23,409 bases of DNA from a virus: positions 1 through 23,409 of the IMG/VR virus record IMGVR_UViG_3300034062_003016; one strand, written 5' to 3'. The notes under the pieces were generated by a model. That model worked only from the letters and a program-made list of their open reading frames with translations, was not told the DNA's origin and did not search any database. Numbering within the stretch: the first letter of the stretch is position 1; every line of letters starts with the position of its first letter. The position numbers were made by a program, and so were the translations under genes. This document shows positions 1,087 to 17,317 of this stretch, piece after piece.

Positions 1087-1159
1087 CGCCGTTCGGGTGC
1101 TGGACTCTTTTGCGCTGTCCCAGGCAAGCGGTAGAATCGGCTAAACTCTACAGGGGCAG

Positions 1160-1187
1160 GATATACCAGATGTTGTGGTTGTGTCAA
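1160..1187 (-). promoter_or_regulatory. sigma70-like promoter for the leftward HNH unit
   Basis: On the minus strand a perfect -35 hexamer TTGACA (1182-1187) is followed by 16 bp and the -10 TATATC (1160-1165). Transcription would start near 1153 and run into the genes at 1086, 712 and 354. The promoter sits at the edge of the TGACACAG repeat array (nearest copy at 1224), so a protein binding the repeats could influence it. Confidence 0.65.
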
Positions 1188-1223: not shown

Positions 1224-1406
1224 TGACACAGTGACACAGTGCTGACACAGACGAAAAAAGTCCTCTGTGTCACGCCAACCCCATGATTCTATTACTACTT
1301 ATACCATCTGACACAGATGACACAGAGAAAATACAAAACTAGTGAAAACACCATAGAGGAATTTAGAGAATAGGATTTTACTGTGTCATCTGTGTCAGGT
1401 GTGTCA
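1224..1406. other. iteron-like repeat array, putative replication origin
   Basis: The octamer TGACACAG occurs exactly at 1224-1231, 1232-1239, 1243-1250, 1309-1316 and 1318-1325. Its reverse complement occurs exactly at 1265-1272, 1381-1388 and 1390-1397. A further seven-base match lies at 1400-1406. Adjacent copies are spaced 8 to 11 bp apart. The DNA between the clusters (about 1281-1307 and 1326-1380) is strikingly AT-rich for this GC-rich genome. The segment is gene-free (1087-1464) and lies directly after the primase/helicase operon. Iterated initiator sites beside an AT-rich melting zone and replication genes are the classical layout of a phage or plasmid origin. An operator array for a repressor is the main alternative. 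Confidence 0.7.
1308..1398. repeat. 18-bp perfect inverted repeat around an AT-rich spacer
   Basis: CTGACACAGATGACACAG at 1308-1325 recurs as its exact reverse complement at 1381-1398, with 55 bp of AT-rich DNA between. Each arm contains two tandem copies of the TGACACAG octamer. The symmetry continues imperfectly inward as AAAAT/ATTTT. This forms the core of the putative origin. Confidence 0.9.
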
Positions 1407-1412
1407 GAACGC

Positions 1413-1441
1413 AGAAAAGCCCCGGAGGTTATCCGAGGCTT
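1413..1441 (-). terminator. rho-independent terminator of the replication operon
   Basis: On the minus strand AAGCCTCGGA (1441-1432), loop TAACC, then TCCGGGGCTT (1426-1417) form a 10-bp stem with one U-G wobble, followed by a short T run (TTTTC). The wobble pairs only on minus-strand RNA, which fixes the orientation. It starts 24 bp past the stop codon of the primase/helicase gene and separates that operon from the putative origin. Confidence 0.85.
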
Positions 1442-1464: not shown

Positions 1465-3519
1465 CTACTGCAATCTGACGCCGACGACGGCCCTGTCCCG
1501 CCTCTGGCCGAAGTAGACTGGGTTTTTCGTGATTTCCAGGCCAGCCGACCGCACCAGCGAAGCGAACCATTGCGGCTGCACTCGCTTGCCGTACCAGTTC
1601 GAGAATCGATCTCGGAAATCCGATATCCCAACCTTGGCGTCCGGGTCGATTTCACACTGGCTCTCCACGAACTCCGTGAGCGGATTCTGGCTTGCCCGAT
1701 ACTCCTCAACCTCAGCCCTGCCGACACCAGTAAACGTCCCGCCGTTCAGGTACAGCCGCTGCGCCCCGTACAGCGCCCAATGCAAGATGCCCTGGATCTC
1801 GCCGCGCAGCTTGTCCCAGATGGCCCGGTCCTGCTGCGCCAGCGGGATTACGTGATTGAACGATATCAGCAGCAGCCGGTTAAACGTGCCGCGACTACGG
1901 TCGTTGATTGTCGGCAAGACGTTCGTGACGATGACGTGCTTGGCGATCGGCACATCCAAAACGGGTGGCAAAAACTTCTCATCAAACAGGATCGGCTCCT
2001 CGGTGCTCACCAGCGTTTTGAATCCACCATCGGCGATCATGGCGTCCGAGGTAAGCTCCGTCAGGAGATTGACCAGCTTTCCCCTCAACGGTGCACGCTT
2101 CCGTGGGTCGTCCATCGCCTCGACTCCCACCGCGCAGCAGTTCGCTTGTCCGGCCAGAACTCGCAGTAGATACGGGATGGTCGATTTCCCGCAATCGGAT
2201 TCGCCTTTACAGAGGAGGGCCTTTTTGTAGGTCGCGTGCGGCATTAGACAGTAGCCGAAGAACTCCTGCAGCGCGTCCTGCTTGGCGTCCTGGTCAACGT
2301 CGCCACCGAAATACGTATCGAGGCACTCTTGCCAAACTGGGCACGTGCTTGAAGAGTCGTATTCATGCGGGACGCAGGATTGCAGGTAGTCCTGCTTTCG
2401 GTGGCTGCGCAGCGACATCGAACGCACGTCGATCACGCCGTTCATCAGCGGGATTTCGTACTTCTCTAGATTCCGCCAGTGCACTTTATCGTTCCGTGAT
2501 TCGTCCACAATGCGATTGGCGATCTCTGAGCGGCGTTTCATGTTCGAGTGCCGCGGCTCGGCTCGGAGTGCCAGGTGCTTCAGCGATCCGGCGTCGATCT
2601 GGCCCCAGTGCGTCCCGTTGTACTGGTAGAGCACGCCGTTGTGGTTGAGGAAGGCGTGCTGCTGCATCAGCCGGTCAGCGTGAGCGTTCGGCGTGAGCTT
2701 GGCGGGCACCTCGACGTCGCTCGATTCGTATTCGGCGTCGATCGGGGCGGGTTCGGCGACGGTGGGCGCGTTCGAGTATTCCGGCGACATCCCCGGCGCG
2801 TACCGCTTGCAGACGTCGGCCACCAGCTTAACGATGTTCTTCTCGGGAGGAACGATCTCACAGCGCTTCGATAGCGTGATGAGCGCTGGCAGTATCTCGG
2901 CCTCTTCCATGCCGTACTTGGAGCGCATCGAGCACGCATATTTAAACAGCGTCGTGTGCTGCTGCCCATGCGGAATGATGTTCGGCGCGGGTCCGACGCG
3001 CTGACTGCCGGTGGGCTTGAGACGTTCTAACAGCCAGTCCGGAGCCTCTGCCGGATGACCCACGGGGAACTCATCGGGGCAGTCCCAGGCATACTCCTGC
3101 TTCGTGTCTGGGTGGATCGACGGCGCCGCCACGATGTAGCCACCGACTCCGCGGATGTCGATATGGGGGCCGATCTTCGACGTAGAGTTCTGCACGGCGA
3201 ACTCCGGCGACTTAAACAGAAAATGCCTGCCGTCCGTTCCGGTGACTGCCGTGATGGTTTCCGGCAGGCTGACCGATTCCAGCCACTCGGCAGCATCGGC
3301 GTGCTTGCTGTCCACGTCAAGGACGAACCACATGACCCCGGTCTTGAGGCCGATGTTGTACTGCGGATTCTCGGTCCACCATTTGCGGATCGTGGATTCG
3401 TCCGTCGTGGCGTCCAGGCATCCGTGTTTCGAGGCAGGGATCTTCGCGAGTGGCTTGAGCGGATGCACCGGCCAGCCGCGGCGCGCGTAGTGTAGGGCGG
3501 CGTCGATTAAGCGGCTCAT
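1465..3519 (-). CDS. primase-polymerase/SF3 helicase, D5-like
   Basis: A 684-residue replication protein. The N-terminal 150 residues match the bifunctional primase/polymerase (prim-pol) family: ARRGWPVHPLKP (12-23), the metal-binding LDVD (67-70), GRHFLFK (97-103) with the conserved His, and DIRGVGGYIVAAPS (121-134). A linker follows. The C-terminal third is a D5/P4-type superfamily-3 helicase with Walker A GESDCGKST (439-447), an acidic LLTELTSD (485-492) and motif C-like HVIVTNVLPT (528-537), then the candidate arginine finger around FNRLL (547). It would make primers and unwind DNA at the origin, as in P4-like phages. It is the last gene of the long operon, starts by ATGA overlap with the upstream gene, and is followed by a terminator and the putative origin. 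No truncation is seen. Confidence 0.92.
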   Translation of the reverse strand: MSRLIDAALHYARRGWPVHPLKPLAKIPASKHGCLDATTDESTIRKWWTENPQYNIGLKTGVMWFVLDVDSKHADAAEWLESVSLPETITAVTGTDGRHFLFKSPEFAVQNSTSKIGPHIDIRGVGGYIVAAPSIHPDTKQEYAWDCPDEFPVGHPAEAPDWLLERLKPTGSQRVGPAPNIIPHGQQHTTLFKYACSMRSKYGMEEAEILPALITLSKRCEIVPPEKNIVKLVADVCKRYAPGMSPEYSNAPTVAEPAPIDAEYESSDVEVPAKLTPNAHADRLMQQHAFLNHNGVLYQYNGTHWGQIDAGSLKHLALRAEPRHSNMKRRSEIANRIVDESRNDKVHWRNLEKYEIPLMNGVIDVRSMSLRSHRKQDYLQSCVPHEYDSSSTCPVWQECLDTYFGGDVDQDAKQDALQEFFGYCLMPHATYKKALLCKGESDCGKSTIPYLLRVLAGQANCCAVGVEAMDDPRKRAPLRGKLVNLLTELTSDAMIADGGFKTLVSTEEPILFDEKFLPPVLDVPIAKHVIVTNVLPTINDRSRGTFNRLLLISFNHVIPLAQQDRAIWDKLRGEIQGILHWALYGAQRLYLNGGTFTGVGRAEVEEYRASQNPLTEFVESQCEIDPDAKVGISDFRDRFSNWYGKRVQPQWFASLVRSAGLEITKNPVYFGQRRDRAVVGVRLQ

Positions 3520-6691: not shown

Positions 6692-7074
6692 TGAGGGCCT
6701 CGCATGGCGTCGATGGCGGCGCGGATGGCCTGCTGCGGTGTCTCGTCGTCCTTGTAGAAGTGGGAGGCGCGGTCCCATACTCCGTCATCGAACCAATCGT
6801 CTCCATTCAGTGACTCGTCAATGATGTAGGTCAGCCGCTCCGAATCCGCCACCAGTCCCGCCTCCCGCTCCATGGCGTCGGCGGCGGCGGAGAGTGCGGT
6901 GAGGCGGTTCGTCTGGATACTTGCGGTCAGTCGATACGCCCCGGCACTTCGCTCGTTGCCGCCCTCGTCCGCCTCGGCTGCAAACCGCAGGCAGCGGGCC
7001 TCTGAGTCGCGGATCTCCTCCGCCATTTCTCTCAGCCGCGCCACCTGGGCGGCGGTGTCTGGGTTATTCGGCAT
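6688..7074 (-). CDS. unknown early phage protein
   Basis: A 128-residue protein (MPNNPDTAAQVARLREMAEE...). The first 80 residues are two Ala/Glu/Arg-rich helices, and the last 45 are acidic and aromatic (LNGDDWFDDGVWDRASHFYK). The N-terminal N-x-A-x-x-ARLREM pattern resembles the start of the protein encoded at 12195-12476, so the two may share a small family. The ATG at 7074 is preceded by GAGGAG at good spacing and overlaps the end of the methyltransferase gene by 11 bp. No function can be assigned. Confidence 0.75.
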   Translation of the reverse strand: MPNNPDTAAQVARLREMAEEIRDSEARCLRFAAEADEGGNERSAGAYRLTASIQTNRLTALSAAADAMEREAGLVADSERLTYIIDESLNGDDWFDDGVWDRASHFYKDDETPQQAIRAAIDAMRGPQ

Positions 7075-9412
7075 AGCACGACTCCTCGGCGAACATATCA
7101 ACCTGTCCCGAACCGTCCATCTCGGCTTGCCGAAGATTCTTGCAGGCCAGTTCAAAGTACGTCGGCTTCAACTCGGTGCCGATGAACCGTCGCCCTTCTT
7201 TCAGGGAAACGTAGCCCTCACTGCCGATCCCCATGAACGGCGATAGCACCAGATCGCCAGGGTTAGACCACAGCCGGACGCCACGCTCGATGATGTCAAG
7301 CTGCAGCGGGCAAATATGCCGCTCGTCGTTCTGCTCTTTCGCGCCGTCGCGGTTCAGCGTCTTCGATTGCTGGATATCCATCCAAACCGGCGAAGCGTAA
7401 CGCTGCCACAATTCGACAGGAAACGACTCATGGGTTTTAGTCACGGGCTGAGGGTTTGCTCCCGGCTTCCGCATTGTAACGAGGTAATCCGGGATTCCCT
7501 GCCTGCTCATCGCTGAGTCTTTGCGGAGTTGCTTGTACAGCAGGCCAATCGCCTTGGTTCGCTGCATGGCAGTTACGGGGTCTTTCCATATACAGACCTC
7601 GGAATGAAAGATGAACCCGCAATCCTCGAACCAGCGGATCATTTGCCCTCGGAAGTCCCGGATGCCAATAAACCCGTCCCGTTCCTTGGAGAACGACAAG
7701 TTCATGCAATGGAACGACAGCAACCGCCCCGGCATGAGCACCCGATACAGTTGCGGGATCAAGAACTTGAAGTGCCGCTCGAAGTCCTCGTAGTTCTTGC
7801 AGTTCCCCATATCGCGGTCGCTGTTGCTGTAGGTGTACAGGGAAGCGAACGGCGGCGAGAATATCGAATATCCAACGCTGTCGTCCGGCATCCGGGAGAC
7901 GTGTTCGACGCAATCGCCCAGTAACGCCGTCCACGACTTCCCGCGCCGCTCATCTTCTGCGTATTCCGTCTTCTGGATCGCGCTAGAGAATACCTCTTTC
8001 TGCATCTCATCCTTCATGTACTCGACCATCCCTTCCATCATTCGCTCTGAATCACTCTCTTTCCGTTGAATGTTGCGCACCACAGCGCCCTCGATGTCAG
8101 CGCTGATGACATAGACATCGACGGGGTTCTTTTGCCCGAACCGCCAGCATCGGCGGACGGCTTGGTAGTACTGCTCAAACGAATCCGACAGGCCGACGAA
8201 TGCGATTTTGTGGCAGAACTGAAGGTTGAGCCCGAACCCTGCAATCTCCGGCTTCGTCACCAGGACACGCGCCTCGCCGTTGATGAACTTCAGAAGGTTA
8301 GCCTCCTTCTGTTCTTCCGATTGCGATCCCGTCACTTCGATTGCCCCACCGATGGCACCGGCCAGCTTCGAGCTTTCCTCGTTGCGTCCGCACCAGACTA
8401 CCCACTGATCCTGATCGCCATTGGCATACTTGGCGCATTCCGTAACACGCTGGTCGATGGTCAGCTTCCGCGCCTGCTGCCGCTCTTGCAGGGACTCGGC
8501 TTCAATCTGAAACAGCCGGCCATCCTGAACCACTCCGCTTTCCACCGTCACCTGATTAATGTTGAGCGGCGGAAGAGAGTAAGGGCCGTCATCGAAACCC
8601 AAGTCAGAAGGCTTTCGGATGGCGACGGCCCACGAGCATACCCACTTCCAAAAGACCGGCTCCGCGTGACGCTTCAGCCGCCACTTTGAGGTATCTGCCC
8701 CGTCGTGCGTGAAAAACATCGCCAACATCTCCGCGCACGTCATGACGCCTAGGTACTCGGCATGATTGCCGAGTTCCATGTAATCGTTCGGCGCGGGCGT
8801 GGCCGACGCGCAAAGGCGATACGGTATAACGGACGAGAACTCCGTTACTGCCTTTCTGAACTTGCCGTCGAAGCCTTTGAGAATGCTGGACTCGTCCAAG
8901 ACAATCCCTGCGTAATCGTTCGGATTGAACCGATGCAGCTTCTCGTAGTTCGTGACTTGGATGGCAGCATCGGTCGGTCCATGCACGTGCTCCACGCCAC
9001 CGATGCCGAACTTCTCGGCTTCGTTCTTCGTCTGCGCCCCCACTACCAGCGGAGCCAGCATGAGAACCTTGCCCGCCTTAGCGGAAACATGCCGCGCCCA
9101 TTCCAACTCCATGAACGTCTTGCCCATACCAGTGCCCGCGAATATCGCGCTTCGGCCTCGACGGACGGACCACTTTGTTATCACCGGCTGATGCAAGTGC
9201 ATTCGCGGGTTGATGTCATCGACGTGGAACCCGGCGACGGGCGCGGCGACGTGCTTACTGCCGATGTATTCTCTGTAGTTGTTTTCCATCTCCCTCTCCA
9301 TAAGAAACTCCTCTGCAAACCAGTCATGACACCCCAACCATGCGCCGGGGTCTGGGTAGAGCGCCGCGCATCGGAGCTGCTCAGCGCGGGCGTGGGCTAC
9401 TGTCCCGCTCAT
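7064..9412 (-). CDS. SNF2-like helicase fused to beta-class DNA methyltransferase
   Basis: About 782 residues with two enzymes in one chain. Numbering from the ATG at 9412: the N-terminal helicase has Walker A AGTGMGKT (92-99), DESS (173-176), SAT (203-205) and a SNF2-style motif VI QAVRRCWRFGQKN (417-429). After a linker, the methyltransferase has catalytic motif IV SPPF (519-522) followed much later by the SAM-binding motif around LVLSPFMGIGSEG (722-734). IV before I is the permuted beta order; SPPF would suit N4-cytosine or N6-adenine targets. It probably modifies phage DNA, with the helicase perhaps giving translocation. P1 DarB also joins methylase and helicase for anti-restriction, but homology is not claimed. 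The start at 9412 overlaps the upstream stop as ATGA. Internal ATGs at 9301 and 9289 have better ribosome-binding sites. Confidence 0.9.
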   Translation of the reverse strand: MSGTVAHARAEQLRCAALYPDPGAWLGCHDWFAEEFLMEREMENNYREYIGSKHVAAPVAGFHVDDINPRMHLHQPVITKWSVRRGRSAIFAGTGMGKTFMELEWARHVSAKAGKVLMLAPLVVGAQTKNEAEKFGIGGVEHVHGPTDAAIQVTNYEKLHRFNPNDYAGIVLDESSILKGFDGKFRKAVTEFSSVIPYRLCASATPAPNDYMELGNHAEYLGVMTCAEMLAMFFTHDGADTSKWRLKRHAEPVFWKWVCSWAVAIRKPSDLGFDDGPYSLPPLNINQVTVESGVVQDGRLFQIEAESLQERQQARKLTIDQRVTECAKYANGDQDQWVVWCGRNEESSKLAGAIGGAIEVTGSQSEEQKEANLLKFINGEARVLVTKPEIAGFGLNLQFCHKIAFVGLSDSFEQYYQAVRRCWRFGQKNPVDVYVISADIEGAVVRNIQRKESDSERMMEGMVEYMKDEMQKEVFSSAIQKTEYAEDERRGKSWTALLGDCVEHVSRMPDDSVGYSIFSPPFASLYTYSNSDRDMGNCKNYEDFERHFKFLIPQLYRVLMPGRLLSFHCMNLSFSKERDGFIGIRDFRGQMIRWFEDCGFIFHSEVCIWKDPVTAMQRTKAIGLLYKQLRKDSAMSRQGIPDYLVTMRKPGANPQPVTKTHESFPVELWQRYASPVWMDIQQSKTLNRDGAKEQNDERHICPLQLDIIERGVRLWSNPGDLVLSPFMGIGSEGYVSLKEGRRFIGTELKPTYFELACKNLRQAEMDGSGQVDMFAEESCYAE

Positions 9413-9795
9413 CGCCCCCACCCATGCATCGCCGGAATCCGCGTGACCTTATGCCCCCGGATATCCACCGGCTGCACCCGCTCGATCGCCTCGGGGCCGA
9501 TGACGACCTGGACATCCGGGACATACGACCGCACGACGACGGGCTTTGGCTTGGGGGCGGCGACGCGCACCGGCTTGACCTTCACCGCCCGTGGTTTCCG
9601 CGCCTTCTTCCGCGCCGCGTTCTCCGCATCCCGGATGGCCCGGAGCTTCTCCGGGTGCCGCTCGCGCCACCGTTGCGCGTTGCGGGACTCGGCCTCCTTA
9701 CGATGGGTTTCGCATAGGGCGTGGCGGCTGTTCTCTTCGCGGGGCGCGCCACAGACGGAGCAGGTGGTGCGGAGGGTGCGGGGTTTACGCGGCAT
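9409..9795 (-). CDS. small zinc-finger protein with a basic middle
   Basis: A 128-residue protein. Residues 12-29 carry CSVCGAPREENSRHALCETH, a C-x2-C...C-x2-H zinc-binding set. A strongly basic Arg/Lys-rich helix follows (about 32-75), then a Pro/Val-rich tail (KPKPVVVRSYVPDVQVVIG). The architecture suggests nucleic-acid binding. It overlaps the upstream gene by 11 bp and ends in an ATGA overlap with the helicase-methyltransferase gene, so the two are made together. No family with known function is recognised. Confidence 0.75.
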   Translation of the reverse strand: MPRKPRTLRTTCSVCGAPREENSRHALCETHRKEAESRNAQRWRERHPEKLRAIRDAENAARKKARKPRAVKVKPVRVAAPKPKPVVVRSYVPDVQVVIGPEAIERVQPVDIRGHKVTRIPAMHGWGR

Positions 9796-17034: not shown

Positions 17035-17147
17035 CGGGGCCTCCCGATGTCGCAAATGATCAGATACCCGAACCCGATCACCAGCGCCATCGTAAACGCA
17101 AACTGGATCGCCTCGCCGGGTGGGATGTTGAGGAGGGCGGCGGTCAT
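17031..17147 (-). CDS. very small membrane protein
   Basis: A 38-residue protein (MTAALLNIPPGEAIQFAFTM...) whose second half (FAFTMALVIGFGYLIICDIG) is a single membrane span. The ATG at 17147 overlaps the stop of the ribbon-helix-helix gene as ATGA and is preceded by GGAGGTAGCCGC, a good ribosome-binding site. The short length makes it easy to miss. Function unknown. Confidence 0.65.
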   Translation of the reverse strand: MTAALLNIPPGEAIQFAFTMALVIGFGYLIICDIGRPR

Positions 17148-17317
17148 GCGGCTACCTCCGCCGCCTGCAACTGCGCCAAGCGCATCCGAATGTACTGCGC
17201 CTGTGTCAACTTGCACGCCGCCGCCTCCGTAGCCACCCATGCGATCTGATCCGGTTCAAGTGCGACGCAGATTCGCTTTGCGTCAATTTGCGTCATTTCG
17301 TTACGTTCTGCGTCCAT
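17144..17317 (-). CDS. ribbon-helix-helix (Arc/CopG-like) DNA-binding protein
   Basis: A 57-residue protein. After about 13 residues comes a strand KRICVALEPDQIAWVATEAA, then CKLTQAQYIRMRLAQLQAAE: one strand followed by two helices, with the typical 'x-V-x-L-x-P-x-x...A...x-x-x-S/T-x-A-x-Y-I-R' spacing of ribbon-helix-helix repressors. It is the first gene of the long early operon, with a promoter whose -10 box is only 6 bp before the ATG. So it probably regulates its own operon or the neighbouring cassette promoter, binding one of the dyads at 17362-17377 or 18414-18433. An internal ATG (MTQIDAKR) is an alternative start. The family call rests on pattern alone. Confidence 0.7.
   Translation of the reverse strand: MDAERNEMTQIDAKRICVALEPDQIAWVATEAAACKLTQAQYIRMRLAQLQAAEVAA

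Follow-up and report, generated by a model that had tools for sequence, protein, structure and literature searches.

In SaPI elements, the C-terminal domain of Rep recognises iterons downstream of its own gene (PMC7581432). Likewise, the isolated C-domain of the SCCmec protein Cch2 binds a putative origin, with direct repeats downstream of the gene (PMC7581432), and the winged helix of P4 alpha binds origin repeats (as cited in PMC4234260). In the plasmid pRN1, a stem-loop of 100 bp located 3' of the PrimPol-SF3 gene is required; an inverted repeat about a 58-nt loop is essential, and 3-bp deletions in the loop abolish replication, as fixed spacing would predict (PMC4234260, PMC3869888). pRN1 has been reported without iterons, and gel shifts with the pRN1 homologue gave no specific binding (PMC4234260).

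The locus described here lies in a 23.4-kb virus record (the window), which may be a fragment. It is like SaPI Rep/ori in having a primase-helicase as probable initiator, iterons immediately 3' of the gene (likewise in close relatives) and a C-domain predicted to read them, but belongs to a phage, uses different octamers and has word and C-domain switched between close relatives. With Cch2 it shares a D5/P4-type helicase, a C-domain and repeats 3' of the gene; Cch2 differs in having only three 5-nt iterons, and primase activity in separate proteins. P4 alpha also unites primase, helicase and winged helix in one protein, and the window protein scores above the curated NCBIfam 'P4 family' cut-off (TIGR01613, P4-family primase; 141.4 bits vs 108.7), although its primase domain is an archaeo-eukaryotic PrimPol whereas that of P4 alpha is of the bacterial type (Toprim). 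The pRN1 protein ORF904 has the same PrimPol-SF3-winged helix order, with a 58-nt loop at its origin compared with a potential 18-bp stem and 55-nt loop here; the pRN plasmids, however, are archaeal plasmids. From comparison of related sequences, the array is very probably the phage replication origin and the adjacent primase-helicase its initiator, the octamers probably being read by a predicted winged helix formed by residues 613–684.

The octamer array and the adjacent primase-helicase

The left part of the window consists of minus-strand genes, the last of which encodes the 684-residue primase-helicase (1465–3519, minus strand). Pfam places a PrimPol domain at residues 8–162, D5_N at 297–404 and an SF3-type helicase domain (DUF5906) at 438–542, and the PHROG match is DNA primase. 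The best relative by sequence in the PDB is 7ola (E 2.4e-22, residues 239–619), labelled 'DNA primase', which we take to be SaPI5 Rep. In the AlphaFold2 (AF2) model of residues 560–684, roughly the last 70 residues have pLDDT values greater than 90, and the order helix, strand, helix, helix, strands is that of a winged helix. In fold comparisons the model was most similar to the DNA-binding domain of RFX (Foldseek, E 6.8e-4; VIA, Z 7.7–8.0) and to the AsfvPrimPol C-domain (Z 7.8), Z scores near 8 being modest. The full-length model is itself modest (pLDDT 71.5), and residues 459–526 are too uncertain for the helicase to be discussed. A winged-helix C-domain is thus predicted at residues 613–684 (1468–1683, minus strand), and these models, together with the incongruence and AU tests given below, make it the probable octamer reader.

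The first-pass annotation had described a gene-free gap after this gene, with AT-rich DNA between clusters of a repeated octamer, and the gap is as described (1087–1464, 378 bp; 1326–1380 is 73% AT, the window 39%). Between 1224 and 1406 there are eight exact copies of TGACACAG and one near copy, TGACACAC, in both orientations. Nine exact copies occur in the window, eight of them packed into 174 bp, against a chance expectation of 0.64 for the whole window and a maximum of 3 in 100 shuffles, so that the array is real; furthermore, the best octamer of the gap scored 18, compared with 6 or less in 40 shuffles. The octamer is not scattered, the sole exact copy outside the array being at 17201, and in the nearest relative (L003), whose contig is 42 kb long, all eight exact copies lie inside the array. 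GC skew showed no turning point at the array within the 23.4-kb fragment, skew being uninformative for a fragment of this kind.

Read in the direction of the gene, the array comprises three forward iterons, 55 bp, two reversed iterons, 36 bp, one forward and three reversed iterons. Iteron 1 is the near copy (1399–1406, minus strand), and is followed by the exact iterons 2 (1390–1397, minus) and 3 (1381–1388, minus), spaced by 9 bp. Spacer 1 (1326–1380) is, from its composition and folding, a candidate unwinding element and the loop of a large stem-loop; on its far side stand iterons 4 (1318–1325, plus) and 5 (1309–1316, plus), again spaced by 9 bp. The tandem pairs 2–3 and 4–5 are thus inverted about 55 bp of AT-rich DNA, and fold prediction gives them a potential 18-bp stem with a 55-nt loop (z -5.7). 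The 36-bp spacer (1273–1308) contains an element, ATAGAATCA, conserved in an alignment of eight relatives, and its equivalent measures 35–36 bp in relatives that retain iteron 6. Iteron 6 (1265–1272, minus) and iteron 7 (1243–1250, plus) are predicted hairpin partners; the L167 stretch that was folded (7253–7295) gave none, as it did not include iteron 6. Iterons 8 (1232–1239, plus) and 9 (1224–1231, plus) complete the array.

In the stretch that separates the stop codon of the primase gene from iteron 1, direct reading revealed a terminator-like hairpin followed by TTTT (1418–1440, minus strand), which was not among the matches of the terminator scan; similar hairpins are seen in the alignment in L167, L004 and L091. 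On the other side, a promoter-like site, TTGACA-18-TATCCT (1158–1187, minus strand), points away from the array. A one-mismatch octamer site at 1179–1186 coincides with its TTGACA and was set aside as a promoter-like -35 box; it is probably not a further iteron, since both L003 and L004 keep TTGACACC here whatever the word of their arrays.

Covariation of the octamer word and the C-terminal domain

Relatives were fetched with the primase-helicase as query, and their proteins divided into an N-part (residues 1–612) and a C-part (last 72 residues). Repeats were found at the same location in homologous phages, as would be expected of the proposed origin; layout and place are common to the relatives, and the word varies. 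Arrays of TGACACAG occur in the window, L003 and L167, and arrays of TGGAACGC in L004, L005, L006, L010, L091, L093 and L009. The array of L007, located about 560 bp from its primase-helicase gene, contains TGACACGG and CGGCACGG together with one TGACACAG; these mixed iterons (L007:7613–7837) perhaps represent an array in transition between words.

Between the window or L003 and L004, L005, L006 or L010, the N-parts are 95–97% identical and the C-parts 51% (97% and 51% for the window vs L004), with the words TGACACAG and TGGAACGC, respectively. In a sister set, L167, L091 and L007, the N-parts are again 95–97% identical, and three words accompany three C-domains (C-parts 43–50% identical; 43% for L167 and L091). 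Conversely, the window and L167 share both TGACACAG and a C-part at 86% identity, and L009, with an N-part identity of 67%, has the same word as L004 and a C-part identity of 81%. By these comparisons the word tracks the last 72 residues of the primase-helicase and not phage kinship. Among the 105 possible assignments of words to the seven distinct sequences of the main comparison, which the permutation tests treat as exchangeable, the actual one gives the best separation of the C-parts, and the N-parts show no such fit. Moreover, AU tests on groups chosen after the words and identities had been seen rejected the word clade on N-part data (p 1.6e-7) and the N-part clades on C-part data (p 3e-79 and 1.6e-4). 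That word and C-domain switch together points to the primase-helicase as initiator, with its C-domain the best candidate for the octamer reader, and the suggestion in the first-pass annotation of a defined origin with its own initiator is well supported by the comparative evidence.

At the start of the second C-domain helix (alignment A5), LP[DE][LM]R occurs with TGGAACGC and TGGAATTC, ISDFR with TGACACAG, and TSxFI with C/TGGNACA words, a residue pattern that offers a lead to a recognition code.

The switch itself appears as a block of low identity (27–67%) between the window and L006, which begins with the C-domain (about 1680) and stops where the array does (about 1230); mostly 73–100% identity is found on either side, and one 30-column stretch of AT-rich spacer inside the block reaches 87%. 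Import of a diverged segment is more probable than point mutation, since synonymous sites of the C-part are near saturation between switched relatives. Spacer 1, between iterons 3 and 4, tracks the N-part (Mantel r 0.87, with 6 of 720 permutations as high, falling to 0.60 when the most distant sequence is left out) and not the C-part (r -0.21), whereas the iterons on either side of it track the C-part. A single block transfer therefore does not account for the whole array, and we infer that iterons have been repeatedly exchanged or converted. Together with the iterons on either side, 1326–1380 and its counterparts in relatives form a mosaic on the scale of tens of bases.

Proposed mechanism and alternative readings

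In the mechanism that we propose, the winged helix (residues 613–684) would bind the octamers. The inverted tandem pairs 2–3 and 4–5, on either side of the spacer, would act with iterons 1 and 6–9, which flank them, to load helicase rings. Once these rings had melted the 55-bp AT-rich spacer, both strands would be primed by the fused PrimPol domain, and replication would be bidirectional. The position of the array directly 3' of a P4-family primase-helicase gene and the fact that neighbouring proteins do not switch favour this assignment. Against it stand the distance of the L007 array from its gene, the pRN1 gel shifts, in which no specific binding was seen, and L221 and most very distant relatives, which show no array.

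Iteron origins often rely on a Rep protein encoded separately, and the array could be an origin whose octamers are read by another protein. The protein encoded at 709–1086, which the first-pass annotation had put forward as initiator, is basic and adjoins the array, but it is 95–96% identical in L005, L006 and L010 and 74% identical in L004, all of which carry the other word, and in L091, L093 and L167, three relatives that do have the array, a homologue was not found; this candidate is therefore abandoned. The small basic protein at 17144–17317, taken to be the one that the first-pass annotation labelled ribbon-helix-helix (the label is its own), has no Pfam or PHROG match and was rejected as reader, being 98% identical in an other-word phage vs 86% in a same-word phage. 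A host factor, in turn, would not predict word switches that track the C-terminus of the primase-helicase, and we consider any of these readers very improbable. Slightly less credit still can be given to a packaging (cos/pac) or transcription-control site in place of an origin. An HNH nuclease gene does follow and the promoter-like site adjoins the array; however, the HNH protein, where it was aligned (L004, L005, L010), remains 91–93% identical although the word has changed, with no homologue found in the stretches examined for L167 and L007; L003 and L004 retain the promoter-like site irrespective of the word, and the word tracks the C-domain encoded by the gene 3' of which the array sits.

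Word and C-domain could also form a hitch-hiking recombination block with no functional tie. The near-saturated synonymous divergence of the C-part speaks for import, and the dip in identity, with recovery on both sides, has the form of such a block. Indeed, adjacent C-domain and array can move in one recombination, so linkage accounts for part of the association. As the whole explanation it is unlikely: spacer 1 lies inside the block and yet follows the N-part while its flanking iterons follow the C-part, each array has one word throughout, and distant relatives have their own word each at the same place.

Breadth of the architecture and its biological context

The array stood clearly above shuffles in 17 of the 20 sequences scored, the window included; two of the 20, L212 and L214, have weak arrays, and by the same score L221 has none. 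Words of further relatives include CGGAACAC, CGGCACAC, TGGGACAA and CGGTAACA. In most scored relatives the inner pairs are spaced by 9–10 bp and inverted about 53–57 or about 90–95 bp, two spacer classes that lie approximately 36 bp apart. The 350 bp after the gene contain a strong array in 18 of 57 helicase relatives at greater distance, compared with none of 293 control stretches. CCTGACC-like octamer arrays are found right after primase-helicase genes in Desulfoluna chromosomes (L169, L170, L172 and L187), with two such loci in one chromosome. By the same score, no clear octamer array follows the primase gene in phages Kurnik, CHPC1152 and LincolnB, the values for CHPC1152 and LincolnB being only slightly above shuffles, and reading by eye showed no clear array beyond the primase of a Thermaerobacter plasmid. 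In Streptococcus phage CHPC1152, a 534-bp gene-free gap after the primase-like gene (L229:4824–5357) holds two similar AT-rich runs and is possibly a duplicated origin. A scan of viral contigs with TGACACAGNTGACACAG returned 76 stretches, including the known relative L003/L015, the bare motif alone not being diagnostic.

The first-pass annotation had raised a phage-plasmid lifestyle. In the contig of L003 there is a tyrosine integrase frame with a single TAG interruption (G001:37705–38934), and G006 and G007 have uninterrupted matches, so that 3 of the 11 records searched have an integrase; a ParA ATPase (PF13614) was not found in these 11, any of which may be a fragment. On this evidence an ordinary temperate phage is more likely than a phage-plasmid. 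The host group is probably Acidobacteriota, on the basis of one MAG contig (L167); among primase homologues from 396 genomes of its phylum, the only close relative was L167 itself. A single 785-residue frame at 7064–9421 joins a helicase-like part to an N6/N4 DNA methyltransferase part.

The comparison with the pRN plasmids covers their stem arms. In pRN1, pRN2, pHEN7 and pSSVx the best self-match of the arm (longest run) lies at offset 9, the pair spacing of the window, and in pDL10 it does not; offset 9 as the best of seven in 4 of 5 plasmids has a chance of about 0.002 by a simple binomial that assumes independence, which these plasmids do not have. We hypothesise that the pRN stem is an inverted iteron pair. 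More broadly, one architecture could extend from bacterial phages to archaeal pRN plasmids, with 9-bp-spaced word pairs inverted about an AT-rich spacer and an exchangeable C-terminal winged-helix reader. Word and helix would be swapped together, perhaps under selection against cross-talk with co-resident elements of the same word, and the pRN 'stem-loop' would be such an inverted iteron pair; we advance this view tentatively, and hold its chances to be a little short of even.

A probable initiator is here assigned to an origin from sequence comparison alone. Near-identical phages, differing in the word and in the 72 residues that are its probable reader, provide a natural swap series, and a winged-helix recognition code of primase-helicases becomes testable with three proteins and three DNAs. 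The comparison also yields a rule for locating origins in uncultured phages and a new and testable reading of the stem-loop origins of the pRN plasmids, which the layout may underlie.
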